From: Polytrichum commune
Lineage: Eukaryota; Streptophyta; Polytrichopsida; Polytrichales; Polytrichaceae
Assembly (NCBI GenBank): GCA_950295325.1
Contig: OX485809.1
Span: 24,118,001 to 24,182,000, forward strand
DNA length: 64,000 nt
Direction: 5' to 3'
The notes under the pieces were generated by a model. The model did not search any database. It was not told the DNA's origin and was given only the letters and a program-made list of their open reading frames with translations. Positions 9,770 to 28,282 of the stretch are shown in pieces. How positions within the stretch are numbered: position 1 is the first letter of the stretch; every line of letters starts with the position of its first letter. A program made the translations under genes and the position numbers.

Positions 9770-10426
9770 TGTGTAAATTTCAAACGTCTGGCATAAGTGT
9801 TTTGAGTGTTCAAGGGTTTTTTTGAGAGCTTTGAAGGAGTTAAAACTCCAATAGTACATGACTTGAGAGACTTGAGTATTGACAAATTTATTTGAAAATT
9901 TTGGAGGTGTTTAGACTTTAAAGCATTTGACTTGAATGTTTTGAGCATTCAAGAGTTTTTTTGAGAGCTTTGAAGGTGTTTCGACTCCAATATTAGCATA
10001 TAACTTGAGAGACTTGAATGTTGAGAAACTTATTTGACAGATTTGGAGGTGTTTTGACTTGACTTGAATGTTTTGATAGTCCAAGAGTTTCTTTGAGAGC
10101 TTTACATGTGTTAGACTCCAATAGTATATGATTTGAAAGGCTTGAGTTTTTTTTAAAGATTCTTTGAGCGTGTAGGATATATTTGAGTTGAAGAGATCTC
10201 ATTTGAATGATTTGAGTGTCCTTAAAATTCTGTTGAGGTGTCAAAAATCTTAATTATTTGAAATTATAAGGCATTTGAGGTAAAGAATATATTATTTGAA
10301 TGATTTAAGTACCTTTCGAACTCTCTTTAGGTCTAGAAAATATTATTTGAATGATTTGAAAGTGTAAGGAATTTGAGGTAAATAAAATCTTATTTGAATG
10401 ATTCGAGTGCTTTAAAGACTTTCACG
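9770..10426 (+). repeat. Degenerate tandem repeats in copia leader
   Basis: About three to four diverged units of roughly 165 bp share 'gacttgaatgttttgag', 'caagagtttctttgagagct' and 'ttggaggtgt'. The same kind of sequence resumes at 27662 on the far side of the 17-kb element, which shows where that element inserted. Open frames here are repeat artefacts. Confidence 0.7.
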
Positions 10427-10430
10427 AGGT
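10427..10430 (+). repeat. Target site duplication, left (AGGT)
   Basis: AGGT immediately precedes the left inverted repeat and is repeated at 27658-27661. Joining the flanks with one AGGT gives 'cacgAGGTGTAGAAG'. This matches the neighbouring repeat unit 'ctttAGGTCTAGAAA' at about 10330, a plausible empty site. Confidence 0.75.
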
Positions 10431-10458
10431 AACACTATATTCGTTAATTGGAGACTTT
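10431..10458 (+). repeat. Left terminal inverted repeat
   Basis: The repeat starts AACACTATATTCGTTA and continues TTGGAGACTTT. It matches the reverse complement of 27630-27657 at 27 of 28 positions. Directly inside lies a subterminal dyad, GAGACTTTGGAAAGTCTC (10450-10467), which could form a hairpin. Confidence 0.85.
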
Positions 10459-10867
10459 GGAAAGTCTCAAAATAAATTGGACCCGTAGTTTCGGATGCGA
10501 ATATTGTGAACGTAGGGAACATGGGGAACAATGGCAACATAATGTTCGAAAGATCCATATGTGATGAATATATATGTTTCTAAATATAGTAATTATTTGG
10601 GGGATAATCAAAACTACGCCAACACAATATTCCAATGTCACAAATTCACAATTATTTTGTATTTTTGATTTTGTATTGAACAAAATTAATGAATCTATAA
10701 ATAGCCATCTGATTTTATATCTAGGGACTCTTGGATGCGTATCCCAAACATAACATCTTAGCCAATTGTGGGTGAATTGAACGGCACATCCCAAACGCAA
10801 CAATATTAAAATAATTTGACAGTGTGTATAAGAAATTGCAAATTAGCATCTGCAATATAATTATATA

Positions 10868-10950
10868 GTTTGGACTCCACATCCGTAAACACAAACATAT
10901 AAAAAACATTTGATAGCGCATGTGAAGTTGGATTCCACATCCGTAAATCA
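10868..10950. repeat. Two decayed palindrome copies
   Basis: 'ggactccacatccgtaaac' (10872-10890) and 'ggattccacatccgtaaat' (about 10929-10947) keep the right half-site ATCCGTAAA and a degenerate left half. They lie downstream of the stop of the left gene. Confidence 0.5.
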
Positions 10951-11087
10951 ATACAATCATGATATATAATTGTAATCTATAAAATTGCTATAAAATGTGT
11001 CTAATATAGTATTCGACCCCAATGTCATATATTTCATGAAAAACCAAGACACATTTCAAATAATTGTGGTCCAACCCTACGTCAATA

Positions 11088-14000
11088 TCATTCTCCATCT
11101 TCATCTTCAGCTTCATTTCCATTCTCGACATCGTTTTCTGCAGCAGCAATACGTGCCAAGTTGTCTTTGGCAAAATCTATATGTTTTTGGGGGATGGTCA
11201 TTGTCTCTGATTTGGAACCTTTGCGTGGTTTCCAAGCACAAAGTATGGTATCTGTGTTTATCCATATTGGTTCGTATGCTGAGTCCATTGTCCATTTGAA
11301 ACCTTTTTTGGTGTCCCACCCTAAATATGTGCGGAGCACATTTTGATCTTTGGTGCTGGGACGGCAATATTCCACCTCAATTTGATGAAAATTTGGGCTA
11401 GTTGGAACAAAATTTGGTGATGACAATGCTTTTACCAACCAAATCGGTTTAGGGTGCTCCTCATCTCCAGGACGTACGAGGATCATATACCCTTCGTAGC
11501 AATCAACAGCCACACGAAATGATGGAGCCGGACGATTACGAGCTGGGCCAACATAATGGTCGTCCGCTGCGAACTCTTCACGGATGTCCCCATTGTCGAA
11601 GAACATGGCCTCAGATTCCACGATTGTCACTCGGCTTTGTGGCCAAAAACCTTGTGTCAAACATGAATGTGTTTCGACATCGGGTGCTAGCAATGCTGAG
11701 CGAATGCGATCCCAGTACGCAATCAATGGTTCGTGGGTATCCCGAACACGCCTTGTGATGTCTTCCTCGCACAATTCTTTCCAATATTGGATGAATCCGG
11801 ATATACCTTTGATGATTTCTAGTCCATTCCTCATGGGGTTGGGTTTGCAAGGCTTCGGCTCCCCATTAGGTAGCATACATTTGCCTTCTTCGTTTTGGCG
11901 CCATACGAGTATCCCTTCCTCTGGACCCCAATCCGGGGAAGTGCACAAAACTTTGAATTGCATGGCCGGCAAACCATCATCACGCATATAGAATCGGAAT
12001 TGTTGAGCCTTGGTATGGCCCACTAAACGGTCACCTCCCTTAAGAATGAATGGTTCGATAAACGCTTTGAAATCGGGCACTTCTTCAATCAAATGCGGGA
12101 TGACTGGCACATTATCCAAATCCATGTATGATTTCATGAGAAGAGGAATCGTCGGAAAATCCTCCTCGTGCAACTTCATACTCCAACGTCCAAATGAAGC
12201 GTCAATGTCATCATGCGTGTGGCCAACCATCAAAAAAGACACAAACACTTCTTTGAAAATGCCCTTGGCTACGAGCAATGACCAAAAACAAAACACGTAT
12301 CGACATTTGTTGTCTTTGGCACAATTGTCCAGTTGCACATGTAGAGTTGGAGGCAAAGGTTTAGCAAGAACGGTTTGTTCAGGCGGTTCTTGCAGTGACG
12401 ATAGACATACTTCTTTCCCCTCTAGCACAGCCTCATAAATCGGTGTTGTTCCACATCCAACAAAAAGAGCGCGAGAGGATGATGTTGGCGGACTCTCAAG
12501 ATCTCGTAGAAGTTTTGCAAAAGACCCTACGGTATGATTGGCGTCGCCTGGATAGAAATCCAAGCCATAATGTGCATACTTGACGTCCACATGGCCATGT
12601 GCGATCATACCTGAATTAAGACATACAAATGAAAAGTACATTCCAATATCATTTATAATAAGGAAATTCAATTTTTCCGCAAGCAGGCCAAGAAAATGAA
12701 CAAACACTTACGGATGTACATCCGTAACTCTTAACGATGAGTATGTGGGTTCGCAAAAAAAATGTGAAAACCAACGAACCTGTGACAGATATTGGGAGCT
12801 TGAAATATCCATCTGTAGCCTTTATTTTCCGTGCATAACAAGGGCACGCAGTCTTCGCATGGTCCATTTTGTCATGAATGATTGTCAAAACCTCATTCGG
12901 CCTCATTATCGATAATGCGCGATTCTTGTAGTAGTCTTGACGGTGTGCCTCTTGGTTGTTGACATGCTCAATGTATTTCCGTTGATGTCTATTGTGCGAC
13001 TCAGTCCCTATGGGATGTGCATCTCGAAGGCCCTTGTATTTTTCACAAGCAGAACACCTGGCAAACTTATCCCCAGGCCTCTTCGTAATGTACTCTGCAA
13101 ATTGTTGATTCTTGATCACACTCAATTTTGACAACGAAATCGGCCCACATCCAGCCTTTTCGCCAACCTCATTAACATCCATAAGTATGTTCTTCCATTT
13201 TGTCCCTGTAGGCAAAACCATCTGGACAACCTTTTCCCCCGACGGCAGAGTCCGTGTTTTGTGTGGCATCGCATCTGCTAATGGCATAATGATGGTTGAT
13301 AGTGTTGCAGCTGCTTGGAGTGTTGCCTCCCTGGGCTTCTTTGTACCAGAGTTGCCATGGAACCGAGAACGCCGTCCTTGCAGCGAGTAGTTCCGGAACC
13401 TATAAAAATCTGCCTTTGAAACTGCATGTATAATGTACCATGCCGTGCAGCATACCTCTATATTTTCCAAGGTCACAACCTTACGACCTTCGGCATCAAA
13501 GTGCATGTTGCGATGGACTTCAAGTTTCTTTGCAGATCGCATCCGAAAGTCCGCAAGCCACATCTCTTGTCTCAAAGATTTGATTTTGTCACGGGGAAAT
13601 AATTGGCAACACATTTTTGCACAACAATCCTTTGTTGCTACGGACCTAATAGATGTGTCTCCCAATGTTAGATCTCGACGACGTTGCGTGGGTTCACGGG
13701 GCACGCGAACGGAATCATATTTACGCCGACCTTGTCTAGGACGCATTGTGGCGAACAAAGTCTTTTGTATTTCCTCAAAACGACGTGCATGATTCCACAA
13801 GCTGACACCATCGTGAAGAACACTTCGCAACGGCCATCGACGAAGAGAGAATCTCCAACCAGGAGGTACTTCCAATGGATGTAAGGAGTTCAAAATGCAC
13901 ACCCCAACATCTTCCTCCCCAAGGGGATTTGCATCAATACAGTCCATAGGATTTGAGTTCCTACAAACACCATTGGCCACGGGGACGCCGTATCCATTGA

Positions 14001-14106
14001 CTATGACAACATCAAGATCAATCCATTGTTCCCGCGAATAACCCTCACATGTTGGTATGAAATCATCCTCTGCATTGGCGACACCAATTGTAGTTTCATG
14101 TTCCAT
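11088..14106 (-). CDS. DUF7869-type protein, DDE-transposase-like
   Basis: Two exons, 14106-12780 and 12610-11088, join in frame (intron 12611-12779, GT-AG, phase 1) to give 949 residues. Seen: a C-x2-C pair (C351, C354) followed by an H-rich R/H/Y segment, MDHAKT (about 414), LHVQLDN (about 533-538), GHTHDDID (about 572-579), a C-terminal SH3/chromo-like segment and an acidic tail. Known: the LDN and GHTHxDID blocks typify DUF7869 proteins, which I recall as expanded in non-seed plants and thought to have an RNase-H-like fold. Inferred: the aspartates at MDH, LDN and DDID could be a DDE/DDD catalytic set, which would make this the transposase. The start is uncertain. An in-frame ATG at 14184 is followed five codons later by TGA (14167-14169), then an open frame runs into the ATG used here. 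Confidence 0.75.
12708..12727. repeat. Intronic palindrome, symmetric variant
   Basis: TTACGGATGTACATCCGTAA is a perfect 20-nt palindrome in the intron of the left gene. Compared with the main form, four central bases differ, and they change symmetrically in both arms, so dyad symmetry is kept. Confidence 0.85.
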
Positions 14107-14325
14107 AACACCTTCAAATTCGCTAGCATAGCTTGACGCTTCCGAAGAGAACTCGAATGCACTATCTCAGACGTTGGAATCCATGGCCACTACAAGTGAC
14201 CCACATGAAGAGTATGTCAAAATATCCCATTCAATAAATGTCATGGATAGTCCTAACGCTTATTGTCAATGAAACACAATGTCAACAATAGTGGATTTCA
14301 TGGCCTGGAAACAAAGACACATTGG
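14107..14325 (-). promoter_or_regulatory. 5' leader of the left gene with possible splice acceptor
   Basis: On the minus strand 'cacttgtag' followed by 'tggccATGG' (ATG 14184) looks like a splice acceptor just before an upstream start codon. If it is used, the palindrome array at 14.33-15.28 kb would lie in a 5' intron, as in the right gene. No TATA box could be assigned. Confidence 0.3.
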
Positions 14326-14863
14326 TATACGAACGCGCGTACGTATATCTCCATGTAACAACATTATCAGTGCAAGCACGCGCATACATATGTCTTTATT
14401 TGTTCATAGTCGGCGGAAAGGTCCAGACAACAAAAACATGACAGTTTTATGGGCGCGCACCCGTAAATCTCTTCGTGGTCAAAGAGGTCAATATCATGCG
14501 CAAATGTTTTCGTAAACTATACAACATAGGTATACGGACGTGCGTCCGCAAACATCCGAATGTCAAAAGTCAGTGTTGTGCAAGACACACAGAGGTTTAG
14601 GAAACCAAGATGTCCAGGTGCCAGGTTCCTACTGTGTATTATGAATGTCAAAATATTATACTATGACACATAGGGTGATGTAAGCTTAGGGTTTAGGGAT
14701 CTTATACCTCCATTGACCGTACAGTCTCAATGTAATATTCTACATGGCACATAGTGAAAAGTATGGAACCAAAGGTTTGCAGGTTTACGGATGCGCGTCC
14801 GTAAACCTCTCTGTACCTCATTACTAGCACAAATAGGTTTAGGTTACTGGACGTGAGTCAGAA
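14326..14863. repeat. Diverged palindrome copies upstream of left gene
   Basis: Copies of varying decay lie at 14326-14347 (TATACGAACGCGCGTACGTA core), about 14447-14466 (half-decayed), 14532-14552 (ACGGACGTGCGTCCG), 14781-14808 (28 nt, one mismatch, GGATGCGCGTCC core) and about 14841-14863 (strongly decayed). Many changes are C-to-T or G-to-A at CpG positions. Confidence 0.75.
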
Positions 14864-14949
14864 AATTTTCATGACAATACAGTCTCGTTGGTATACTATA
14901 CATGGCAAGTGGTCATGATGTCAGCTCAGGTGCAATACCGAACAATGGA

Positions 14950-15285
14950 ACAAAAAGGTGCAAAAGTTTACGGACGCGCGTCCGTAAACCTCAATGTAGA
15001 TGAAATAGGTCAAGTATAATTCTCACTGCAATAGATATCCAATCAAGCAAGAGGTTAAAGGTTTACGGACGCGCGTCCGTAAACCTCAATGTAAATGAAA
15101 TAACTCAAGTATAATTCTCACAAAAATACATATCCAATCAAGCAAGAGGTTTAAGGTTTACGGACGCGCGTCCGTAAACCTCAATGTACATGAAATAGCT
15201 CAAGTGCAATTCTCACAGAAATAGATATCCAACCAAGCAAGAGGTTTAAGGTTTACGGACGCACGTCCGTAAACCTCCGTGATTT
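14950..15285. repeat. 95-bp x4 tandem array with palindromes
   Basis: Perfect copies of TTACGGACGCGCGTCCGTAA start at 14968, 15063 and 15158, and a one-base variant (GCACGTCC) at 15253. The spacing is exactly 95 bp each time. The spacer is conserved ('cctcaatgta', 'gaaataactcaagtataatt'-like, 'atatccaatcaagcaagagg'). The array lies 5' of the left gene. Confidence 0.95.
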
Positions 15286-16497
15286 GCGGCGCCATAATAG
15301 GACCATTTCACCAGGAACGATACTTGCCATAAACAAAAATCAATCACTATAAGGATCCAGACAGTGCAATCCACATAAAATTGGCTCCACTAATGGGTTT
15401 ATGGCTTGGAATTTAGTGTTTAGGGTATAAAAGGTCCATTGCAATAGGATCTGTACCTGCACGAAATAAACATCCAGAACACTACAAGGGTCCAAGCAGC
15501 GCAACCCACATCTGAGATGCAAAAAGAGTCCCTTGGTGGAGGGGTGTCCCCTTAAGTACTGATCGTTTCCCTTGGATCCGTTTTCCAACATAGGATACTA
15601 GCCACCATCTACGTCCTATAAATAAAAACCTAACATTACTACATTCCGTGTGCCAGCCTTACAATGGAATGTGTATTCATAGTGGACAACATGCATAGAC
15701 GATGAGTCCACATAATGACAAAGCAAAAGGCATCTACGTATTTATGGTGGACAACAAAGAAAATAGGCTAATAATATATGAGCATTGAACATTGTTGAGG
15801 GGTGGTTTATAATATTGAAGTACCTAATATTGAGAGGTCATTGTAGAACTAAGAGACAGAAAATTATAGTGTCGTGTGAAACATCAACCACAACAACAAC
15901 AATAGTACATGGAGTATAAAAATACGTGTCATTCAAAATTAAACTAGCATCTATTTTATTGTTTTGCATACGATGTAATGATATTCACTCCAATATCATG
16001 TTATCTCCTCTCATCTAGCATTTAAACTAGTAATTACATTTGCCACCACCCTACCATCCAACCCGTTTAATTTACCCACTTTTACACACCTATACATAAT
16101 TATACTAATACGTACACAAACTTTGAGCGCCTAGATGCCATGAAAATAGCACATCTATTGTCATAGGCACTATGGGTTGCTTTAAAATCAATATTCTCAA
16201 TTTCCTCTCTTAACTTTAGGGCCCCCTTCAATACATCAACATTTATTTCAAAAAAAATAATACTAGCATTCTTAATGTACTATACGTGAGACAAAAAACA
16301 ATTTTTAGTACCCCATGTACATTATCTACAATATTGACTCAAACAATAGCAGTTGTTGTTCTAAGTAACATTATGAGCCCAACAAACCATAATGGAGAGA
16401 AGGGGAGGGTAGGGTATCCAAATATTATAAAGGCAAGCAATTTTAAGTTGGTGACAGAAGGGGGATACTCTCATTAGTTCATACGTGGTACCCTAAA

Positions 16498-16562
16498 TCC
16501 TAAACCCTAAACCCTAAACACTATACCCTATACCCTATACCCTATACCCTATACCCTATAAC
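16498..16562 (+). repeat. Interstitial telomere-like tract
   Basis: CCTAAAT, then CCTAAAC/CCCTAAA units, then about five units of the variant CCCTATA. The first part matches the plant telomere repeat CCCTAAA; the second is a homogenised one-base variant. Confidence 0.8.
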
Positions 16563-18431
16563 CGCCCACCCCTGAACAAACACAACGACATACGGTACGC
16601 ATGGTTAACTGAATAACTCCCAATACATGTGTAGCCTTAAGTGGAAGTAATTCAAAACTATATGACTACCTTTAAATTTTGTAAAATAAAACCATAAACA
16701 TTTCAAATGTGAAGCAAATTTAGGGGTAACCTTACCTTTCATTTTTTTAAATCTTTCTTTGGCTTTAAACCATTTGCTTTAAACATATACTTTTGATGAA
16801 AGGTTTTGAAGATCGTATATTGGTATTCTATAATCGAGTCCTAAACACAACTCACCACCGAAAGAAAACTCCAAATATAAACAAGTTTGCTACTACTTAT
16901 AAGCGATAATACAAGCTGAGGCCTATGTGTGGAAGGATTGGATGGATCCGAAAGGTTGTTTAATGTACAAGAGGGATGTACATTCAACACATACCCATGC
17001 ATTTTGTTTTAATACAAGCTTAGACCTATGTGTGGAGGGATTGAATTAATCCGTAATGTTGTTTAAGGTATTACAAGCATATGAATTCTCCCCATATCTC
17101 GATGTTTCGGTTTTGTTAATTGCGTTTCACAACTTATTGCGATAATTGAGGGATTCACAAGTATTTCTTGGCAAAGTTTCATGAGAATTTGTGGCCAATT
17201 GGTATATTGCCCCAATTGCATTTGAATCCCACCTTTGAGAAGAAAAAGAATTCTTATAATGAAGTTAATCAACAAGACATCCTTTTATTGAATATTATTA
17301 CTATTCTCGAAATATAGAGTCCCCTCCATAGCTCGGGGGGTGCACTGTACTAAACATGTACGAGTTATACGTGAGTGCACAGGAGGGGTATTGATTTGGA
17401 CCTTGCCGTATTGCATATACATATGGTATACATGTTATAATTTATAGTTACGTACATATATGGAAGGCCTTTAAAAAGTATAGAATAATTGTACTTGTAT
17501 GGTATTGTTACTATACTATATATCATAAGTGTTCATATTGGATAAGTTTTCATAAGGTTTGGTTTGTTGGGAGAGTTTATAGGATGCGGAGGAAGTTTGG
17601 TAATCGTTGGGTGGAGTATAGGGATCCATTTGACTTGATGGACCGTCCATCAAACGTGGAGATTGGTTTATGTTGGTATCAAAAGGGGCTAACAACAAGT
17701 GGACATATGATCTTATTGATCATTCCATGGTAGACTTCGAGACAATAATTGCATTTGTATACTTATGTTAATGACTCTCGGGGGGGGGGGGGGGCAGTCA
17801 TTGGTTGGAGTAGCAATATACGTGCAAACAAATGATAGGGTATTTTAAAAACATGGGGGCAAAAATTTATAAATGGACTTAAGAGTAATATAGGGTATCA
17901 AAAATGGCACTGGACATCTTTAAAGTAGTATAGGGTATGGAATAATTGGTAATTTGGAATTATAAGTAATGCAAGCCATTTTTCTATTAACCCAAAGTAG
18001 AAATTTATATAATGATAGCATGTGAAAAAAAATAAGAGAATTGAAAGTAATACCCCCCTATATCCTTATTTTTTTAACACACTGCCCCCCCGAGTAATGA
18101 CTAATATATATGAATGGATGTTTTTTTGTGTATACATATTGTTGCTTGTATATTTATTGTTGCAATTGTATGTGTATTACTTCATTTCACAAAAAATCAC
18201 TTGTATATATTAGGGGGTTTTTAGAGTATGCAGTGAACGCACGTGATTCTAGGTTTTAATGAAAGGTGCTCCCCCACTCTCCATAGAGGCCACACTAGAA
18301 ATTGTAGTTAGTTTCTCTCATTGTTTGGAGTTCCAAAATGATATTATTATTATTATTGATGTCATTTAATTGTTGACAATGACATAATAATTTACTCAAC
18401 CTCACACCCTAATATAATTTCCTAAAATAAT

Positions 18432-18490
18432 GAATACTTTCTAGAGCTCGTATGAATATTTCACTCATTATCAAAAGTGAAGAGAAGAGG
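18432..18490 (-). repeat. Dispersed repeat family B fragment
   Basis: 'agagctcgtatgaatattt' and 'attatcaaaagtgaag' match the copies at about 45510 and 46500. This fragment lies inside the 17-kb element. Confidence 0.5.
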
Positions 18491-18599
18491 CAACGAGATG
18501 GCTCATTTTATATTTAGAGTGACATTTAGTGTGACTTTTAACTTGCCTTAGCATAAACATAAGATGTTATTATGACATAATATGATAATAAAATCACCA

Positions 18600-19661
18600 A
18601 ACTAAGTATAAATTAAACCCCTATTTCAATACCAAATATAGACCAGTAGGGTGATGCCACGTAAGGGTATAGGCCGGCGATTGGGCGCGACGTTTGGGGT
18701 AGGGACACGTGGAGGCACGCCATTGTTTTAGGGTTCCAAGTACTCCAGCACCCTTTCGCCCTCGCTCTTCGTGCTTTTCCTTCCTTCTCTATCATCTCTT
18801 CCTTCCGTTCCTTCTACTGTTGCTCTTGCTTCTCTTGCTTTAGGGTTATAGGGTTTCAAAGTACACCAGCTCCCTTTTGCCCTCCTCTTCGTGCTTTTGC
18901 TTCCTTCTCTTGCAACTCTTGTTTATCTTGTTTCTCTTGTTTCTCTTGTTTCTCTTGCTCATCTGCTCTTGCTTCTCTTGCTCATTTGCTCATCTTCTCT
19001 TGCTCATCTGCTCTTGCTCATCTTCTCTTGCTCATCTACTCTTCTTCTCTTGCTCATCTTCTCTTGCTCAACTTCTCATCTTCTCTTGCTCATCTGCTCA
19101 TCTTCTTTTGCTTCTTTTGCTTCTCTTCACTTTCTTCTCTTGTTTCTCTTGCTTCTTACCCTTATCTTCACTTTCTTCTCTCTCTTCTCTTGCTTCCCTT
19201 GCTGGTCTTGCTTCTCTTTCCTCACAATGCAAAACTCATTCTTATTGGTCAATTGCTGATGCGCGTCAGAGCTAGAGTAAGTTCTCCTTGTTTGCTGCTC
19301 ATTTGCTTATTAGCTCATTAGCTCATTAGTAAGTTTTGCTTGCTGCTTGCTTGCTTGCTGCTCATTAGATCATTAGGATGCTCATTGTTGCTTGCTACTG
19401 CTCATTAGGTTGTTTTCAGTTGTTGATCTCAGTTGTTGCAAGGGTAATTAGTGTTTCAGATGTTGCTCATTAGGGTTTCAGTTGTAGCTTCACCATGTAG
19501 TTCATTATATTTTTTGCATACAAATCAATAGTTTCCTTTCACTTGTGTTGCATGAATCTGATTTATGAGCAACTTTTTTGAGTAGTTCTCAATGTTGAAT
19601 CATGCATGTGCACATTGAATTACTAGAGGTTTCTGACCTCAATTTTATTGTTCATTTGCAG
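18600..19661 (+). promoter_or_regulatory. Putative promoter/leader of right module
   Basis: A GC-richer island (about 18650-18730, with GCCACGT and ACACGTGG motifs) is followed by a duplicated segment of about 115 bp (18735-18840 and 18840-18940, each with 'agggtt', 'tccagc' and 'ccttcttctct'-like blocks). Then comes a strong pyrimidine-rich tract of TCTTGCTCATC-type repeats (about 18890-19230). CT-rich tracts of this kind are common in plant 5' UTRs. Long frames across it are low-complexity artefacts. Confidence 0.4.
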
Positions 19662-19989
19662 TTGGTATTAGCTGCAGCAGGAGCAGCTAGTTGTGGTTTA
19701 GGAGCAAACACTCTAGAAAGGTAAGTTTTTTAGAACATTGCAATTGCATTTTGTATGATTGCAATTTTGGGTTGTTGTGGTTTAGGGCTTAAGGTTAGCA
19801 TGACAGAATGTGAGATTCCAGTTTCAAGGAATTCTGAATTTGTTTAGTACTTTGTCTATGGCTACATTCTAAGAATCATTTAGTTATGGACATGTCAGTG
19901 TTCTGAAAGTGCCTTATGTTGTCAATCTGCAGTGCAGTGAAGTAAAATTGCATTCTTATTTGGAGGGCAAAACCATATTGGACGACAAG
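19662..19989 (+). other. Candidate 5' exons of right gene
   Basis: Two stretches have good splice borders: 19662-19720 (after TTTGCAG, before GTAAGT) and 19933-19989 (after CTGCAG, before GTAAAG). The second is open for 19 codons in the phase that runs into the ATG at 20857. If they are used, the 135-bp palindrome array lies in an 867-bp 5' intron (19990-20856). No start codon was identified upstream. Confidence 0.35.
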
Positions 19990-19999
19990 GTAAAGTCCC

Positions 20000-20540
20000 G
20001 AAAAACACGGAGCATTAATGAAAACATTGGAATACGCAAACATTACAATAGCCTTTATAATCCTCAAAGTTTACGGACGCGCGTCCGTAAACTTTGTGGA
20101 TCTTTGTGTAGGTGAGAGACAAGCCTCTCAAACAACATATTACGCAAACGAAGCCAAATATTGTAATATTAGGCATATTAAAATAGCCTTTATAATACTC
20201 AAAGTTTACGGACGCGCGTCCGTAAACTTTGTGGATCTTTGTGTAGGTGAGAAACAAGACTCTCAAACCGCATATTACACAAACGAAGCCAAATATTGTA
20301 ATATTAGGCATATTAAAATAACCTTTATAATACTCAAAGTTTACGGACGCGCGTCCGTAAACTTTGTGGATCTTTGGGTAGGTGAGAGACAAGCCTCTCA
20401 AACAATATATTACGCAAACGAAGCCAAATATTGTAATATTAGGCATATTAAAATAGCCTTTATAATACTCAAAGTTTACGGACGCGCGTCCGTAAACTTT
20501 GTGGATCTTTGTGTAGGTGAGAAACAAGACTCTCAAAAAT
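20000..20540. repeat. 135-bp x4 tandem array with palindromes
   Basis: Four 32-nt perfect palindromes occur at 20065-20096, 20200-20231, 20335-20366 and 20470-20501, each with the 20-nt core (starts 20071, 20206, 20341, 20476). The period is exactly 135 bp. The spacer is conserved and unrelated to the 95-bp array's spacer. Because 135 is divisible by three, both strands show repetitive open frames; I treat those as artefacts. Confidence 0.95.
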
Positions 20541-20656
20541 ATATGTAGGTGAGAAACAAGACTCTCAAAAATGTAGGTGTGAAACAAGACTCTCAAAAAA
20601 ATATTAACCGTAACTTGAATACATTGATATTTACCACCATACTATCTTTGCGAAGT

Positions 20657-20676
20657 TTACGGACGCGCGTCCGTAA
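20657..20676. repeat. Single perfect palindrome
   Basis: TTACGGACGCGCGTCCGTAA, upstream of the right gene and outside the 135-bp array. Confidence 0.95.
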
Positions 20677-20777
20677 CTTATAGAGATATTTGAGTATATA
20701 ATATACGCGTTATGCGTATTTGGAAGAAATGTATCTTTTCATTTGGATCCAAAAATATAATTGAGACAATTTGGAAA

Positions 20778-20803
20778 ACTTTACGAACGCGCGTTCGTAA
20801 AGT
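20778..20803. repeat. Palindrome with compensated change
   Basis: A 26-nt perfect palindrome with core TTACGAACGCGCGTTCGTAA. Relative to the main form, G-to-A in the left arm is matched by C-to-T in the right arm, so symmetry is kept. Confidence 0.9.
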
Positions 20804-20856
20804 ATGATCTATATCTTTTGCCAAGAATTCTAACTTATCTATCTTATCATTTGCAG

Positions 20857-23800
20857 ATGGCATCTAAAAAGAGACATGCAATTGAGATGTTCGCAGAAGC
20901 TCTCATTCCTCCGCTACCAGAAGCCATCAAAGACATAAGTCCCAACGACCATTACAAGCCACAAGATGAAATTGTGGATAATTGGACAGTATTGGTAGAA
21001 AAGGACGAGAAAGAAATATTTGTGCTTAGATTTGCATATCAAATGAAGACGGACATAGATGAAGCTGAGAAGTGGATAAAGCTTAAATCGTGGACAGTAG
21101 AGTGTGCAGTGGCACAAGGGGATTATGTAGTAATAGACCTTGAGAAGAAAGAAGATCGGGTCACTTTCATTTTGCACGAATCCTACCACCCCTTCAACAA
21201 AAATGAGTGTGAGAATGCTAGTACAGATGCGGCTTGCTTCAATCTCCAGACGGAGTTCCAAGACTATGCATGCAATGCACCTTGGACGGGTAAGCGGCTT
21301 GGACGACTATTGAACAATGTAACAAGAGTAAATGGAGCCTTGCTAGAGGCCAGAAAGGGGAAGGATAAGAAAAAACAAGTCGTTCCTGAACGACCTAAGC
21401 GTGTGCCTAAACCAGTGCCGGAATCCTCAAGGTCCTCGCAGAGTGGTGCATCAAGAGGGAGCAGACAGGCGAGTAAACGCTCTCACTCGCAGATGGACTC
21501 TGGACTAACAGAGGGTCCGGATGTCAGCTCTACACTGACTGTCGCTCCACTCCTCAAAAATGGTCAACGCCCTGACGCCGAACTCTCAACAAAAATATTC
21601 CAAGAGTTCGATGAGAAGACGAAGGGATGCTGGCCCCTTGGCAGGTATTTTACTTTCGAAGTAGACGTCTACAAATGCCACAAGGGCACCGAAAGTATGA
21701 ATACCAGAGCAAAAGAAGAAAGCGGTGTATGGTGGCAAATGAACAACATCATGAACAACCCCAAGTTTGACAGGCAAACCATTTGTGTGACACCAAAGGA
21801 TCCTATCGTTGAAGTCAACGAAAAAAATTGGCCGATTCTCAAGAATGGAGAGTTCTACATTGTCGACGGCCAACATAGTGTAATGGCTGCAAAAGCTCTC
21901 CTTGAAGACGACGAGTGGAAAAGCCCATTAAAGGAGACAATCCGATATTGGAAGGCATTCGTCGTGCATTCCAAGGACTCGAACCAACTCATAGCAATAT
22001 CTGCCTTCATGAACCAGGGGAATAAAGTGAGGCAGTTCGAGGCTTCATGGGCAGCCAACATCGTGGCTGGGAGGACCTTGTGGGTGGAGCACGAATGTCC
22101 CCCAAAAGAAAGAGATAATGCTGTCGTGAAGAACCCAAAATGGCAGGTATGTTACTCAAATAGATTTACGGACGTGCGTCCGTAAATGTGGCCCTTCTCC
22201 TCCCACTGCTTCAAATATTTAAATTTAATTTGTACTGAATTCAATGTTCTGATTTCTTGCAATTCGCGCCTCTTGCAGACATTCAGCAATGCCATATTGA
22301 CAAAGTTCTCGAGTATAGACATGAAGACAAGCGGCATGAAAACAGTGCATGAATTAAAAGGCGAACTCAAGCTCATCACTGCAACAGAAGAGACGTGGTC
22401 AATATGGTTGCGACTTTTCGATGCCCACAACAACGGCGACCTTGTCAATCCAGATACGGAGAACACCTACAAGAGCGACTCAAAAGTTAAGGTACCACCA
22501 ATCCTGCGAGAGTTCTTTCATCCCCTCCAAGGATTGATGGACTCGGAGCTGTACAGGGCAGCAGAACACATTCTTCTAGAAACTCCTAGAAGAACTCTGC
22601 CCTATCCCAAAATCTTTCTGAAGCGGCCGAAGCACATGAAGCCATCCACGTACCACATTAAGGAATGGTGCGATTACAGAAAGAAGAAGACCATGGCTGT
22701 AAGGGAGATTAGCAAATTGCTACCCACCCACAACCTCATTAATAGTGATGGTGAGATCGTGTGGGAGAATTGGAGGAAGCTGAAGGGTGAATACCACATC
22801 AATGGCGTCTCAATGCGAGCTTTGATAAGAGGGGCATCATCCTTCCTTGCCCAACGATCCAGAAGGAACGAAAAGAAGGGATCCATCGACGAGAGGGAGG
22901 CAGGGTTGTATGTTCACTTTCTCGATAGGAAAAAGAACGCGAAATTTGGAGGGTTTGCAAGATTCTGCACGGTCGCAAAGGGCATGAAGTTCGGCGCATG
23001 GGACACCCATGCTTCAAGAGCCTCTGTGAGAGATGACCCCAGGGGTTGCCCTTTCGCCATTTTTGATTTTCGTGCAATTCCCGGAGCATGGAAGCAAGAC
23101 GTTGCGGGAGCACCCTTCTACGAGCCCTTCTTAAAAGCCTTCAAGAGCTATCGCTCGCCTGCCCTCTTCGAGCCTCATGTGTGGTTATGGATTGTAGAGC
23201 AAGAGAGGTCCACATCCATTGTCCATCTGTACACATCAACGATGGACCTCGAATACGATATGTACCACAGCACCTACATCCCAACGAAGACAGAAGGGAT
23301 CACTTTCATTCAAGAGGCAAGGGGGGTGAAGCAAGTGGGAGCTGTGCAGCTTTATTTCTTAACACGCAAGTCTTCCCCAACTGGGCGATTGCCCATTAAA
23401 CCACACGAGGTGTTCAGGAAAGTCTATTCGTTGCCGCCACCACATCCCGAGGAGCTTGTTGAGGAGACAATGCATGCAATCTATCCGGCGTTCGAGCTCC
23501 GGATGGACTTTTATATAGGGGTCTTGAAGGCTTTAACTGTCATGAGTGAGACAGTTTACAACGTCTTCGGAGGCACGAAGTTTATGTATGCAGCACTGGT
23601 GAGTATTTGTTTGTCTTTCTACCCACCTATCTTTTGCATAGTTATTTTACGGACGCGCGTCCGTAAAAACCCAGTATCAGGTGCATGTGAATTTTACGAC
23701 CGTGCGTCCGTAAAATTGTCCAACTTTTGAGTGGTGGTTTTACGGACGCGCGTCCGTATAACGTGTTGACATCTAGCCTCATTTATATGCAATCACCACT

Positions 23801-25265
23801 ATTGTTCTTATCTAATTTTCTTGTTATGGTCCAGATGCTTGGCTTGCAGGTGAATTCTTTTGTGCAGGATTCCGACTACGATGACGCCCATACTCACAGG
23901 GTAATGGCCTCCAAAATGGATATCCAGGACATCATGGACGTCCTTACACCCCATCCTGTTGTGCCTCTTTCTTCTAGAGAAGAGGCAATGCCCGGAATGG
24001 AGACAGACCCTGAAGAGGACCAAGATCCCAGTTCCCCAAGAGCGCAACCCTCCACACAGGAGCCTTTACACGGCCTTGTTCGCGACCCAATTAATCCAAG
24101 TGCTTTCCTGCTGGGAACAGACGACACGGATGCGCAGGAGGCACGCGTGAACTTCACTCCGATAAGGGTCCCTCATACCCCTGTTCTCTCACCTTTTGGG
24201 ACTCCCACCTCTCGAGTTGGATTTCCCTCAACTGCGGGTCCATCTCGTGCTCCAGGAGTTATGGCCGAGAAGGATGTGGACCTTGCGGCAGAAAGCGGAT
24301 GCACCGCTTCATCTGGAGGGGGATCTCAACATTCAGATCTACCCCCTATGGAGGGGAGGGATGTGCTGGAGTTGATATTGAGGCCTGATATCTCTCTATA
24401 TCGTGAGAGTCGACGAAAGAGGAACAAGACGCCATACAACGAATACCCTGAAGGCGCGGTCTTGGAGCTCTCCGATGAAGACGAGGATGAGATTAGGATT
24501 CACAATGCCATCTCTGCCTTGCCTACGGAACCTGGCAAGGTGAAGAAAGAGCCGATGTCAGTGTCCGAATTGGATGAGAAGATGGAGAGGCGAATGAAGG
24601 AAGAGCTTGACCAACGGCTTCGAGAAGCTAACGAGGAGCACGCCAAAAAGATGGCCGCCATCCAAGCTGAGATGGAGCAAGCTAGGTTGGAGTCTGCTCG
24701 AAGGCACGCCGATCTCATGGCCCAAAATCAACAGTTCTTGGCCCAAAGTCAACAATTTATGAGCCTGATGCAGAGCTTGCAGGCAAGACCCCCTGTAGTC
24801 TATACAGCTCCCGATGCCGTCATGTCTATGCCCCCCACTCTCATGCGGCCTCCGTCTAGTAGCCATGCGGTGTATATACCCGAGCATGCTTATCCAGCCC
24901 CCACGTTGATTGTCCCGCCCTCTCCCCTTGTTGTCGCCACTCCAGAGGAGCCCTCCTCTCATCCTACAGGAGTGGAGGAGATACCGGCACGTGACATGGC
25001 GGGTGCCGCCGAGACAGATGTCAATGAAGGCAATGCCCCCATCGGCGATGAAGATGTACATATGCGGGGCAGCCAAGACTCCACAGATGAGGATCAGCCT
25101 TACGTGGATACTCAAGGGTCGCAAGCGGCTGGAGACACCTTGTTGGTGGTCGAAGATCTGGACAATTTTGCGGACGCGCGTCCGGATCCTGTGCCCATGA
25201 CGGGGCCAGGTGAGGGAGGCACTGCTGGCGCGGACCTCGCCCTTGAAGAGGTAATCAACCTTTGA
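20857..25265 (+). CDS. ParB-like plus methylase-like protein, multi-exon
   Basis: Three exons joined at phase 0: 20857-22146, 22279-23598 and 23835-25265. The first ATG directly follows a TTTGCAG acceptor. Seen: a basic/serine-rich linker (about 170-240), YIVDGQHSVMAAKAL with D337-S341, then ISAFMNQGN; in exon 2, VYNVFGGTKFMYAAL (857-871), spliced to LGLQVNSF and SDYDDAHTHRV; then a proline/acid-rich region and a coiled coil (about 1113-1186). Known: DGQHR/DGHHR motifs mark ParB/DGQHR domains, and 'VxDxFxGxGTT...AA...lg...D..Y..A..R' marks amino-methyltransferases; bacteria and phages fuse the two. Inferred: a ParB-methylase-derived protein whose methylase core is degenerate (D replaced by N, GTT by GTK, no DPPY). 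It is divergent from the left gene. The last exon may instead splice at 25250 to 25591. Confidence 0.6.
22164..22187. repeat. Intronic palindrome variant
   Basis: ATTTACGGACGTGCGTCC followed by GTAAAT. One central mismatch (GACGTGCGTC). It lies inside the 132-bp intron 22147-22278. Confidence 0.9.
23645..23759. repeat. Three palindromes in one intron
   Basis: Intron 23599-23834 holds a perfect copy (core 23647-23666), a two-mismatch copy (23691-23716, ACGACCGTGCGTCCG) and a near-perfect copy (23740-23759, last base changed). Confidence 0.9.
25171..25184. repeat. Palindrome core inside coding sequence
   Basis: CGGACGCGCGTCCG is embedded in the third exon and read as Ala-Asp-Ala-Arg-Pro. It lacks the TTA/TAA arms. 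Confidence 0.85.
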
Positions 25266-25278
25266 GCATGCCTCCCAC

Positions 25279-25300
25279 GTTACGGACGCGCGTCCAAAAC
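25279..25300. repeat. Partial palindrome after third exon
   Basis: TTACGGACGCGCGTCC followed by AAAAC: the left arm is intact and the right arm decayed. It falls in the alternative intron 25251-25590. Confidence 0.8.
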
Positions 25301-25590
25301 TTCCTTGTCTGCCTCCTTCGTGGCGTGTGTATATTATCGAGTTCAATCCTCGACTTCGCCCGGCGGGTGGATACAATTTTGTTAGCATAGATTCCATTAA
25401 CTTCAACAGATATTTTTTGCGACAATGTATATTATTCACCAAATGTATATCACCAATTACATTAATACCAATTTTTCAACTGGATGGTTCGGATTATTTT
25501 TGGCCTTATAATTTGTGTTGAGTTTATCCATGCTTGTCAATTGGTTTTCTTGAGTAGTACCATTTACCTAGATAGAATGTTCCATCACAG

Positions 25591-26358
25591 GGTCCGTCGG
25601 AGATATGTCGCAACCCCGCGGGAAAACCAAGCGCGCCCATGATGAAACCGTTCATAATATTTGACCTCAATGGGGTGCTTTGTCAATCCAAACATATCTC
25701 GAATAGTGCGTCCAAGGGGCCCTTCCGTAGTCCACAAGACATGGATTACGGCGGACATTTCGATACTCTCATAAATAAGAAGGTTGTACGTGCCCGCCCC
25801 GGTTTGAGGAGCTTCCTTCGTGAGGTCCTTGGCTTCGCCCATGTCATCATCTGGAGCTCTATGCTCATGGACAACACGAAGGCCATCGTCGGTTTCCTTT
25901 TCCGAGAACTCGCAATGCCATGCTTGCTTCTCGGTCAAGAACACTGCGATGACCTCTATGACCGTAGTGGCAATATTGTACCCAAGGTCGGAGGGGGTCG
26001 TGGGCCTCAATTCTTAAAGGTCCTGAGGAAGAACCTCTGGGTGGGCGTCCCTATGTTGGAGGGGGTTCCCCACGGTTGTTGGCCCACCCCGGATAACACA
26101 CTCCTCATTGACGACAGCCCGGCAAAGAGTATTCTCAATCCCCCGGGCAATTGCATATTCCCGGATCCTTGGGAAAGCGATAGAAATGACAACTTTCTAG
26201 AGAGTGAACTAAGACCCTACATTAGGAGGCTTGCCTATCACCCCGGAAGTGTCCCGGATTTTGTGCTCTCCAACCCAATTGGCAATAGGCCTCTAGGCCC
26301 ACAAGATGAGGAATTTAGGAGATTGTACGGCTACGCTAGACTCAATAAATTAATATGA
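25591..26358 (+). CDS. FCP1/NLI-type HAD phosphatase-like protein
   Basis: Read from the ATG at 25639 this is 239 residues. The frame is open back to 25591, immediately after an acceptor (CCATCACAG). A phase-0 splice from 25250 (GAG before GTAATC) would fuse it to the ParB-like protein, giving about 1,597 residues. Seen: FDLNGVL (D9, N11), VIIWSS (S73/S74) and LLIDDSPAK (D158, D159). Known: these are HAD motifs I, II and IV, spaced as in FCP1/SCP-type phosphatases that act on phosphoproteins; motif I is usually DxDGT/V. Here the second Asp, the general acid/base, is Asn, a DLNG form I recall from some plant FCP1-like proteins. Catalytic competence is therefore uncertain. A host gene captured by the element is an alternative origin. 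Confidence 0.65.
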   Translation, partial: GPSEICRNPAGKPSAPMMKPFIIFDLNGVLCQSKHISNSASKGPFRSPQDMDYGGHFDTLINKKVVRARPGLRSFLREVLGFAHVIIWSSMLMDNTKAIVGFLFRELAMPCLLLGQEHCDDLYDRSGNIVPKVGGGRGPQFLKVLRKNLWVGVPMLEGVPHGCWPTPDNTLLIDDSPAKSILNPPGNCIFPDPWESDRNDNFLESELRPYIRRLAYHPGSVPDFVLSNPIGNRPLGPQDEEFRRLYGYARLNKLI

Positions 26359-26450
26359 AAACTTTGATGATTTTGGGTTTGTACTTGGACTCTCCATGTA
26401 AATATCTAACATTTCTCCCCTTATCTTTGTAATGTATTTTTGTGTCTTAG

Positions 26451-27347
26451 TTGCCTCACCAAGCACCCAAAAGTGTCGTCAATGGCATGTCTGCATCTCA
26501 GGCAGACACCGGCTCCCTTTCCCTTGGTATGAGCGACGTTGCAATGCCTTCACTATTCCAATATTCGGCCGTCGATGCTGCCTCTGCTGTTGATTACTCC
26601 AAAGACTCCGGGTTTGAAGACGGAGTCGTGGATAGCCCTCCTGCAAAGGTTGCAAAACTCAATTACTCTCCAAGTCCATCTCCATCTCCCCTCCGCAGTG
26701 AGAAGCACGTCCGTAACCCACGGTCGACCAGACGCCTTTGCATGGATGAACCCCAAATTGATGTCCCGGCGTTTGCGAACGTCCCTCTCGGGCTTGTATC
26801 TACACCCGTCGATGTCCCAAAAGCTCTAACCAGCGCCCCAAAGGCGAAGGTGCCCAACTATTGGCATTCTCAAGTTTTTCCTTGATGATTTCCGTGTATT
26901 AGTGCATTTCAACTTCTTGGGTTTTTCGGACTTCCATCCGTAACTTGTAACCACTTATACTAACCCACTTCATTATATATATTTATGGTCATTGTTCAGA
27001 CCCCAATGTACACGAATGTGGGCCGGGCATCATCGACTTCGTCATTGGATAGGCGAACACTGAAGACAGCTTCTTGCGAGTCTGATCGTTGTTTGGCCCT
27101 ACGGAAGAGTGCAAGACGTTCGGTTTCCCAAACGCATTCGTATTCCACTTATTCGGAAGGGGGTCGGCAAATATGGGCAAATGGCGCATATTCGGGGTCA
27201 ACAAATAAACAAGGTTACAGCCGCGGACCCGAGATCTTTAGAGCCATGGAGGCCATGAAAGCAAAGGAACGTGAAACGGCCGTAAATGCTAATAATAGTA
27301 TTGCAAAAGCAAAAGTAGTGAGTCGTAATCATGATCCGAACGTATAG
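26451..27347 (+). CDS. S/T-rich protein of unknown function, two exons
   Basis: The frame opens immediately after a TGTCTTAG acceptor at 26450. It can be spliced at 26874 (CAA before GTTTTT, a weak donor) to 27000 (after GTTCAG), both phase 0, giving about 257 residues ending near 27347. The protein is Ser/Pro/Ala-rich with an SPSPSPS run and a basic C-terminal part; I recognise no family. No initiator ATG is at the border, so this is probably the 3' end of a longer transcript, perhaps an alternative end of the upstream gene that skips the HAD exon. A decayed palindrome (TCGGACTTCCATCCGTAAC, about 26926-26944) lies in its intron, and an ACGTCCGTAAC half-site at 26708 lies in its first exon. 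An AATAAA-like signal is at 27443. Confidence 0.4.
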
Positions 27348-27629
27348 GCTATATTAACATACATGTAGTTGTGGAATTATGTTTCTAGGACTTTCGCCTA
27401 ATATTGGATATTCCACTTGCATTTTGTACTTCAACCCCTATTCAATAAATATGATATTGATTTTCCATATGCAAATGTTTTCATATATCCCATTTTCTTA
27501 TTGTTAATGTGTAGTTCCATGCATTTGAGTCTCTTATTTGTTTCCAAAATTGGGAACATAGCATATTTTTAGTGTTTTCATTCCTATAAATGTGAAAGCC
27601 ACGTCCTTAAATAGTCTCAAAATTAACAA
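27348..27629. other. Right subterminal region of the 17-kb element
   Basis: AT-rich, no gene. A GAGACT-type motif near the right end echoes the subterminal dyad of the left end. Confidence 0.4.
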
Positions 27630-27657
27630 AAAGTCTCCAAATAACGAATATAGTGTT
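27630..27657 (-). repeat. Right terminal inverted repeat
   Basis: On the minus strand this starts AACACTATATTCGTTA and then TTTGGAGACTTT. It matches the left end at 27 of 28 positions and is followed by the duplication AGGT at 27658-27661. Confidence 0.85.
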
Positions 27658-27661
27658 AGGT

Positions 27662-27841: not shown

Positions 27842-28282
27842 TTATTGGCACCCATGGATCTTGGGGATATTGTGGACGGATCCAAGGAACCTCCACCTTC
27901 CAATGCGGATCCTAAAGTGTTGAAGGAGTATTAAAAATGCGTCAAGAATGTCATGTCTATCATCAGTCTCAACTTGGCAGACAACCAACTTGTGCACATT
28001 AAAAATTGTAAAGAACCCGCGGAGGCGTTTAAGACCCTTCCATACATTCACGAGACAAAGACTTTATCTAATATTCTTTTCATATGCCGCAAATTTTTCA
28101 CATGTAAGATACAAGAGGACGATGATTTATTGGACCATATCAACAAAGTCAAGGCGTTCGCATATCAACTCATTTGTTTGGAGGTACCCATGAGAGACAA
28201 AGACAGTGTCATAACCTTGCTCGAGAGTTTGTTGGCGTCGTTCGAATACTTGATCACCGTCATGGAGACGATGAGAGTGTAG
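27842..28282 (+). pseudogene. Copia gag fragment (UBN2 type)
   Basis: The translation shows SKEPPP, then CVKNVMSIISLNLAD, PAEAFKTLPYIHETKTLSN, LLDHINKVKAFAYQL and VITLLESLLASFEYL. This is the typical order of copia/UBN2 gag alpha-helical segments. A TAA at about 27932 interrupts the reading frame, and the frame ends at 28280 before any zinc knuckle. The copy encodes only the first half of gag and cannot make a working capsid protein. Confidence 0.8.

Follow-up and report, generated by a model that had tools for sequence, protein, structure and literature searches.

A 17.2-kb DUF7869 transposon of the moss Polytrichum commune, probably of the Sola1 kind, with ParB/methylase-like genes and arrays of family-specific palindromes

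Transposons of the Sola superfamily encode a DDD transposase, generate 4-bp target-site duplications (TSDs) and usually measure 2-9 kb, with some exceeding 15 kb; their terminal inverted repeats (TIRs) run from 11 to 1124 bp and their termini are variable (PMC10741241). Sola1 is known in a moss (PMC10741241; PMC9033089), and a Sola1 of a choanoflagellate combines a 32-bp TIR and a 4-bp TSD with a single gene (PMC6875170). In the 21.5-kb Sola1-1_Ec32 of Ectocarpus, the strand opposite the transposase encodes a protein that combines a ParB-like part with a DNA methyltransferase; proteins of this sort, its authors propose, attach to the DNA of the transposon that encodes them and modify it (PMC12477816). 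The present study concerns an element of 17,227 bp, from 10431 to 27657 in a 64,000-nucleotide stretch of Polytrichum commune DNA (contig OX485809.1, positions 24,118,001 to 24,182,000; the whole stretch is called the window here). As a whole, it is best explained as a giant DDE/D-type transposon, most likely of the Sola1 kind, that carries a self-management module, a reading that we consider likely.

Two further systems offer points of comparison. In bacteria, parS sites are palindromes, and the classic CTP-binding ParB proteins carry an arginine motif. VANDAL elements are transposons of the MuDR type. In the VANDAL elements of Arabidopsis, the element-encoded protein VANC reads short motifs within the introns and upstream regions of the element; these motifs are arranged in tandem repeats and vary from one related family to another, the transposase being more conserved (PMC5735166; PMC10398659).

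The interval holds a giant DNA transposon that is present in many copies and was recently active, and its status as a transposon is practically certain. An initial annotation of the window had claimed 28-bp inverted ends, a flanking AGGT duplication and an interrupted host repeat that resumes beyond the element, and all three claims were borne out. An inverted-repeat search paired 10430-10458 with 27630-27658 (29 nt, 97%); the outermost T/A of this pair is part of the AGGT duplications, and the true ends are AACACTA at 10431 and 27657. When the flanks were joined with a single AGGT, they aligned over the junction to the neighbouring repeat unit at about 10272-10369 with a score of 70; when the right flank was shuffled 200 times, the highest score was 59.

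The ends were also searched for, as that annotation had proposed, in the 408-Mb genome (64 contigs, of which C1-C7 measure 42-78 Mb each, with the window in C7), and further copies with the same ends and 4-bp duplications were found. The 16-mer end AACACTATATTCGTTA occurs 635 + 638 times, its reversed control 0 times. A 76-bp query from the left end gave at least 41 matches (842 candidates, of which 40 were scored), many of them 100% identical from the end inwards. For 20 end pairs on contig C1, taken from the first 100 listed ends as a + end followed by a - end (some other such pairs were left out), an identical 4-bp duplication stands exactly outside AACACTA in 19, at varied sites, and a 5-bp duplication in none; the ends of the single failing pair are 37 kb apart. 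Two pairs with good duplications are only 3.6 and 4.8 kb apart, which indicates that shorter derivatives have also moved. The full copies B539_1 and B539_3 on C1 are about 99% identical to the window copy across 17.2 kb, and this near-identity argues for recent activity; the copy B539_2 (C1:37219826-37237711) is mostly 76-89% identical in the parts that align. Chance or an assembly artefact is ruled out by the copy number together with the duplications.

The DUF7869 domain is encoded on the minus strand and is separated from the left TIR by 1.5-1.9 kb. In a subfamily called A502 here, this spacing measures 1,348 bp for four copies and 1,347-1,349 bp for three more (by eye). Among the 14 DUF7869 matches on C1 up to 45.32 Mb (from 150 listed matches of 1,491 candidates), 12 are accompanied, on the side expected and at most about 2.3 kb away, by the exact TIR word and two are without it (by eye), which answers the annotation's question of whether other DUF7869 genes are flanked by the same ends. 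A third family, with a 692-aa DUF7869 frame, comprises elements of about 25 kb, one of them 24,986 bp, with the TIR ATGGGGATATTAACTAAAATGAG. Perfect 4-bp duplications flank 7 of 10 pairs of its ends (by eye); of the other three, one shows a one-base difference, one no match, and one lacks the first TIR bases. For the 29 listed matches of the 692-aa frame, the near-end TIR word lies within 3 kb in 24 and the far-end word at 10-35 kb in 25, with both in 20. The TIR on the DUF7869 side of this family agrees with AACACTATATTCGTTAAATTGAGAC at 16 of 25 positions, ungapped. The near-fixed offset and the related ends of this other family indicate that TIR ends and DUF7869 travel and diverge together. 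DUF7869, raised conditionally as the transposase by the initial annotation, is thus supported in that role, and it is very probably a three-aspartate (three-Asp) transposase acting at the AACACTA ends.

The three Asp motifs, [IV]I.D.MD, Q.DN and VGHTH[ED]D[IV]D, are kept in most aligned rows; one row, L055, has lost the second Asp. In an AlphaFold2 model of DUF7869, weak and with extra short strands, the motifs follow strands 1, 4 and 5 of an RNase-H fold. In the structure comparison VIA, 33 of 50 rows are Argonaute-type proteins placed on the core (Z 5.9 or less) and one is a retroviral integrase (Z 4.2); Argonaute-type proteins are themselves RNase-H folds, and the modelled fold is consistent with the assignment rather than proof of it. 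A search of PDB sequences with the DUF7869 profile gave nothing usable. DUF7869 relatives were found in no viral contigs, no prokaryote genomes and none of 14 control genomes, a weak negative since the contig patterns were few. Further DUF7869 lineages, L053-L058, are 27-35% identical to the 692-aa frame and match most of the profile.

How does the element compare with Sola? The 4-bp TSD (19 of 20 pairs, and 7 of 10 in the 25-kb family), a 28-bp TIR within the published range, the giant size and the occurrence in a moss are all points of likeness; three conserved Asp stand in the expected strand order, but on a low-confidence model with weak fold matches. Most Sola elements, by the published descriptions, measure 2-9 kb, and the choanoflagellate Sola1 has a single gene, unlike the multi-gene element of 17 kb described here. 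With Sola1-1_Ec32 the moss element shares its status as a giant DNA transposon and a ParB-like protein encoded opposite the transposase; for the methyltransferase, the likeness here is a resemblance of motif only. It differs in having the ParB-like and methyltransferase-like parts in separate frames (putative exons), the latter part being degenerate in appearance. The moss element also has a NIF phosphatase and family-specific palindrome arrays, neither of which is mentioned for Sola1-1_Ec32 in the accessible portion of the paper (PMC12477816); the word 'palindromic' has 0 occurrences in PMC12477816. On balance the element is probably of the Sola1 kind, which is the leading name by description. 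The earlier statement that the gene content fits no transposon class is probably wrong, as the 4-bp TSD, three Asp, size and opposite-strand ParB-like gene match Sola1 by description.

A somewhat less probable arrangement is that the DUF7869 elements form a separate, unnamed superfamily that shares only 4-bp duplications and accessory genes with Sola1. The TSD, the three Asp, the size and the occurrence in a moss fit published Sola (PMC10741241; PMC9033089), and a giant Sola1 with ParB/methyltransferase opposite the transposase has already been published (PMC12477816). In favour of a separate superfamily, PF25273 (DUF7869) is the sole Pfam match of the transposase frames scanned, the term DUF7869 was not found in the open-access papers searched, and ParB/methylase-like frames also occur in a MuDR-like element (below), so they are not diagnostic of a superfamily.

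The element was also compared with other named groups. EnSpm/CACTA elements have ends that begin CACTA and 3-bp TSDs. The initial annotation had correctly placed CACTA two bases inside the ends, and this likeness does not imply a CACTA element: the start at AACACTA and the 4-bp TSD rule EnSpm/CACTA out, and the transposase domain is another one. MuDR/MULE TSDs are usually about 9 bp; the published ranges are 4 to 10 bp for MuDR and IS256, 3-4 bp for Academ (AcademX) and 0-4 bp for PHIS. With 4 to 10 bp allowed, a 4-bp TSD alone leaves MuDR possible; the Pfam scan of the transposase gave no MULE match, and the TSD is exactly 4 bp. Academ elements carry an XPG nuclease beside the transposase; the TSD here fits their range, and the eight open reading frames (ORFs) scanned gave no significant Pfam match to a nuclease. 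Harbinger/ISL2EU (PHIS), Ginger, IS3EU and IS481EU have transposase or integrase cores of their own, none of which was matched by Pfam in the scanned frames.

The gene content reported in the initial annotation was also examined. The DUF7869-type and HAD-like (NIF) genes have Pfam matches (Table 1); of the ParB/methylase-like content, the ParB part gained support as a ParB-type fold from structure comparison, and the methylase part is a matter of motif resemblance only. The AlphaFold2 model of the ParB-like protein was built from five sequences and has a mean predicted local distance difference test (pLDDT) of 38.5, with one domain at about 70-80. With this domain, the first 13 Foldseek rows are Noc, ParB or KorB (E 8.3e-4 to 1.5e-2). 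The first 27 VIA rows run from Z 10.2 to 6.4, row 28 falling to Z 2.6; 25 of these are titled ParB, Noc, KorB, PadC, sulfiredoxin or SbnI, the others being free serine kinase and Atu1540, and the best match is 7ng0 (Z 10.2, 95 residues, root-mean-square deviation 2.0). The model thus supports a gene product with a ParB-type N-terminal fold, a result that is new within the open-access literature searched. The ORF at 22186..23730 probably belongs to one gene with the ParB-like part. The methylase label is based on a signature spread over two putative exons (ELRM...FGGTK... and Q.LG..V), which is also present in A502_2 and less well in the 25-kb family. PDB sequence searches with the ParB-like and methylase-like profiles gave nothing usable. 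A match of the methylase-like profile to a cytochrome trimer (E 8e-6), 31 residues with no stretch passing alone, was judged to be chance, and a ParB-C match of the same profile (E 0.11) was set aside. No match was found when the window was scanned with Rfam and for tRNA.

Between the window family and A502, DNA aligns (in pieces above 80 bp) only across the DUF7869 gene. The gene order is nevertheless kept, with protein identities of 63-66% for the transposase, 31-34% for the ParB-like, 31-40% for the methylase-like and 26-30% for the coil-like protein; the NIF phosphatase is 41% identical to that of A502_2 and is split into two frames in A502_1. The 25-kb family also holds a transposase (40%), ParB-like (21%), methylase-like (28%) and NIF (36%) proteins.

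A feature of these elements that had not been expected is a palindrome that each family has for itself. In the window, the palindrome TTACGGACGCGCGTCCGTAA has 18 sites with at most 3 mismatches, all within 14532-25299, against an expected 0.00. With at most 4 mismatches there are 21 sites in the window element, 22 in B539_1, 26 in B539_2 and 22 in B539_3. A different word, TTTGGGTCGnnCGACCCAAA, has 35 copies in A502_1 and 32 in A502_2, and a third, CCACGGGTGnnCACCCGTGG, has 22 copies in the 25-kb element; sites in tandem units are dependent rather than independent in these counts. Across the seven elements examined, the palindrome types of the other families number 0, and shuffles gave 0 or 1. 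The coding sequence conserved across families (7,488 of 17,227 nt, 43%) overlaps 1 of the 21 sites, the one inside the end of the ORF at 23691..25265; array 1 is placed 5' of the transposase gene and array 2 5' of the ParB-like gene (Table 1), and further sites lie between frames and in putative introns. As far as the open-access literature searched shows, 21-35 copies of a family-specific palindrome per element, mostly outside conserved coding sequence, are new.

Genome-wide, the palindromes of the window, A502 and 25-kb families occur 878, 9,731 and 819 times per strand, respectively (the patterns differ somewhat in strictness), and their controls 0 times. Of the 878 window-type (B-type) places, 50 were listed, and 49 of those lie at most 20.5 kb from a correctly oriented TIR end, with at most about 5% expected by chance. 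The A502 word (A-type) falls at DUF7869 elements in 81 of the first 100 listed places (by eye). The other 19 lie outside such elements, and these rule out that the three palindrome types are confined to DUF7869 elements.

Most of these off-element places lead to a different transposon. Stretches covering 16 of the 19 were inspected, three at C1:463 kb being left out. Five of the 16 places are in a 12.3-kb element at C1:2151944-2164288, two are in a partial copy of it at about C1:433656-441151, and seven are in an approximately 90%-identical piece from its ParB side (about C1:477725-480000); the remaining two, at C1:475.3 kb, adjoin that piece outside the alignment. The 12.3-kb element has GGAGGGAAGCTATC.../GGGGAGTGCTATC... 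as its ends and is flanked on either side by the nine bases AGTTGGCAT (one copy, by eye), as fits MuDR-like elements. Its minus strand holds transposase-like frames, one with a weak SWIM match (E 0.076). On the plus strand, one frame is ParB-like, with DGNHR, and another is methyltransferase-like; neither plus-strand frame has a Pfam match, and the latter gave nothing usable against PDB sequences. Its A-type arrays occupy the same kind of places as in the DUF7869 elements. The recurrence of one palindrome in a MuDR-like element with ParB/methylase-like frames is new as far as the open-access literature searched shows.

Synonymous divergence suggests that the elements are mosaics. For the window element and B539_2, the transposase gives values of 0.29-0.35, NIF 0.41 and the small ORFs 0.20-0.30, as against 1.4 for the ParB-like and methylase-like parts and 0.7 for the coil. 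The ratio of non-synonymous to synonymous divergence (dN/dS) for the same pair is 0.11 for the ParB-like/methylase-like parts, 0.16-0.18 for transposase and NIF, 0.26 for the coil, and 0.37 and 0.68 for the small ORFs. Between A502_1 and A502_2 (C1:27537293-27551721 versus C1:28958577-28975442), the transposase shows a synonymous divergence of 0.04-0.15, the NIF end 0.03-0.28 and the coil 3.6, whereas for the ParB-like and methylase-like parts it is saturated and not computable; the transposase of this pair has dN/dS of 0.18-0.43 and ORF 7, from few changes, 3.4. The block proteins are 72-85% identical within each compared pair. On the simplest reading, the central ParB/methylase-like block would have been exchanged between lineages and would have a history different from that of the ends, with two pairs as the small sample behind it; such a separate history is new within the open-access literature searched. 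It is unlikely that no module was exchanged and that the block merely diverges faster: its proteins are indeed less alike between families too (31-40%, against 63-66% for the transposase), yet their synonymous divergence reaches 1.4 or saturation, when the transposase, NIF and small ORFs in both pairs stay at 0.03-0.41. B539_2 (about 318-1257) and L081:8611-9567 share a repeat of about 940 bp (77% identity) that the window element lacks; it is probably a separate small transposon nested in B539_2.

These observations can be joined in one mechanism. The three-Asp DUF7869 transposase would cut and join at the AACACTA ends. A ParB-fold protein joined to a methyltransferase-like part would bind the element's own palindromes, 5' of genes and in putative introns, and once bound might mark the DNA or chromatin of the element, as a means of evading silencing by the host or of adjusting the element's expression. 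Host transcription may be the target of the NIF-type phosphatase. With a palindrome of its own in each family and a ParB/methylase block whose history is separate from that of the ends, the palindrome would serve as a family identity tag.

Of the known systems, VANC of Arabidopsis works most nearly like this. An element-encoded variable reader, the placement of the motifs and their fast divergence are shared with VANDAL/VANC, the reader's role being a proposal here. VANC differs in its domains (DUF1985, DUF287) and in a motif that is short and non-palindromic, and anti-silencing has been shown by experiment there only. With bacterial ParB-parS/Noc the likeness lies in the ParB fold and palindromic sites; the differences are that no ParA was recognised here and that the sites, whose binding is here a proposal, are 20-26 bp long and arrayed in a eukaryotic transposon.

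Several results weigh against the reading as a whole. The DUF7869 model has a mean pLDDT of 49.8, below 50 around the third Asp; Foldseek found no match to it at E<=0.001, and its best VIA row (MutYX, Z 7.7) falls outside the core. Only one domain of the ParB-like model is well predicted, every Pfam and NCBIfam model missed ParB, and its DGQHS differs from the arginine motif of the classic CTP-binding ParB. The methyltransferase part has no Pfam or NCBIfam match and no DPPY-type motif was seen in it, which makes methyltransferase activity doubtful; the part is possibly inactive. The 19 A-type places outside DUF7869 elements belong here too, and a host factor would equally explain a word shared between elements whose ParB-like proteins are dissimilar. 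That the element-encoded ParB/methylase-like protein reads the palindromes is accordingly put forward tentatively, as something that may or may not hold.

More doubtful still is the widest form of the idea, namely that eukaryotic giant transposons run a ParB-like self-recognition code. Family palindromes would be read by a ParB/methyltransferase-like protein, the module would be exchanged between lineages, even between Sola-type and MuDR-type elements, independently of transposase and ends, and it would serve as a kind of incompatibility or immunity group by which elements mark themselves and avoid silencing.

Who else might read the palindromes? A host protein that binds DNA could be the reader, its sites (promoter, insulator or replication element) having been captured by transposons, which we regard as fairly improbable. 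The same palindrome type does occur in a DUF7869 family and in a MuDR-like element that has a different transposase and no significantly similar protein; indeed, BLAST found no significant match between the ParB-like protein of the latter and those of the DUF7869 elements. That said, a correctly oriented TIR end is found no more than 20.5 kb from 49 of the 50 B-type places listed among 878, three families use three unrelated words, and a host site would be expected at host genes too. It is very unlikely that the transposase itself binds the palindromes as internal sites comparable to the subterminal repeats of CACTA elements. Some sites (at most 4 mismatches) do lie near the ends in A502_1 and the 25-kb element, but the outermost sites of the window element are more than 1.8 kb from either end, and the A502 and window families have unrelated palindromes despite transposases 63-66% identical and TIRs identical over their first 16 bp; the joint presence of palindromes and ParB/methylase-like genes in two transposon classes also argues against the transposase as reader. 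Finally, that the accessory genes are passengers from the host that do nothing for the element, as might be thought from the giant Ectocarpus elements, most of whose accessory genes are of unknown function (PMC12477816), is highly improbable given the same gene set in the same order in three families and dN/dS of 0.11-0.26 in six main coding blocks between the window element and B539_2.

Table 1. Features of the element and their positions in the window
Feature	Position	Strand	Remarks
Target-site duplication AGGT, left	10427..10430	.	identical to 27658-27661
Left TIR AACACTATATTCGTTAATTGGAGACTTT	10431..10458	+	inverted-repeat pair; first 16 bp 635 + 638 times in genome
Transposase, second coding part, DUF7869	11088..12707	-	PF25273 E 4.2e-40; 65-66% identity to A502 family
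Second transposase part, section conserved across families	~11124-12614	-	
Third Asp motif VGHTHDDID	12201-12227	-	in second transposase part
Second Asp motif VQLDN	12324-12338	-	in second transposase part
Transposase, first coding part	12649..14166	-	63-66% identity to A502, 40% to 25-kb family
Divergent palindrome TTACGGATGTACATCCGTAA	12708..12727	.	between two transposase coding parts (putative intron)
First Asp motif IIHDKMD	12862-12882	-	first transposase part; section conserved across families ~12772-14127
Palindrome array 1: six sites of TTACGGACGCGCGTCCGTAA, <=3 mismatches, four 95 bp apart	14532..15272	.	5' of transposase gene
Palindrome array 2: six sites, four 135 bp apart	20071..20800	.	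5' of or at start of ParB-like frame
Protein with predicted ParB/Srx fold	20761..22185	+	AlphaFold2, Foldseek and VIA; conserved in three families
ParB-like matched domain (model residues 289-424)	~21625-22032	+	DGQHS motif 21862-21894
Palindrome at end of ParB-like frame	22166..22185	.	putative intron
Conserved ORF, methyltransferase-like C-terminal signature NVFGGTKFMYAAL	22186..23730	+	signature at 23560-23598
Putative GT-AG intron with three palindromes	23599..23834	+	palindromes at 23647, 23694, 23740
Next ORF: signature continues (QMLGLQV...), then low-complexity/coil-like	23691..25265	+	continuation at 23832-23903; 26-30% identity to A502
Two palindromes	25168..25299	.	one inside end of ORF 23691..25265, one just after
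NIF-type (HAD-like) phosphatase	25576..26358	+	PF03031 E 2.8e-13; FDLNGVL 25660-25680, LLIDDSP 26101-26121
Small conserved ORF 6	26451..26885	+	39-42% identity to A502 family
Small ORF 7	26964..27347	+	41-45% identity to A502; dN/dS 0.68, constraint not clear
Right TIR	27630..27657	-	inverted-repeat pair with left end
Target-site duplication AGGT, right	27658..27661	.	identical to left copy

Other features in and around the element may be recorded here. CCCTAAA/CCCTATA repeats at 16490-16566, inside the element, look like plant telomere repeats (by eye). A frame on the plus strand just to the right of the element (27935-28282) resembles a Copia gag (by eye). Farther off, the minus-strand frame at 61478-62833 matches DUF659 below threshold (E 9.5e-07; 29.1 bits, the cut-off being 34.7) and shows a BED zinc finger weakly; at a guess, it is a hAT-transposase-like or domesticated gene.

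For the orphan family DUF7869, these results supply a probable job, that of a transposase, along with defined ends, a target duplication and young copies. The published guess that ParB/methyltransferase proteins mark their own transposons (PMC12477816) becomes testable, with the family palindromes at gene boundaries and in putative introns as the candidate sites. If true, such self-marking would be a parallel to the anti-silencing of Arabidopsis VANC, achieved with different proteins.

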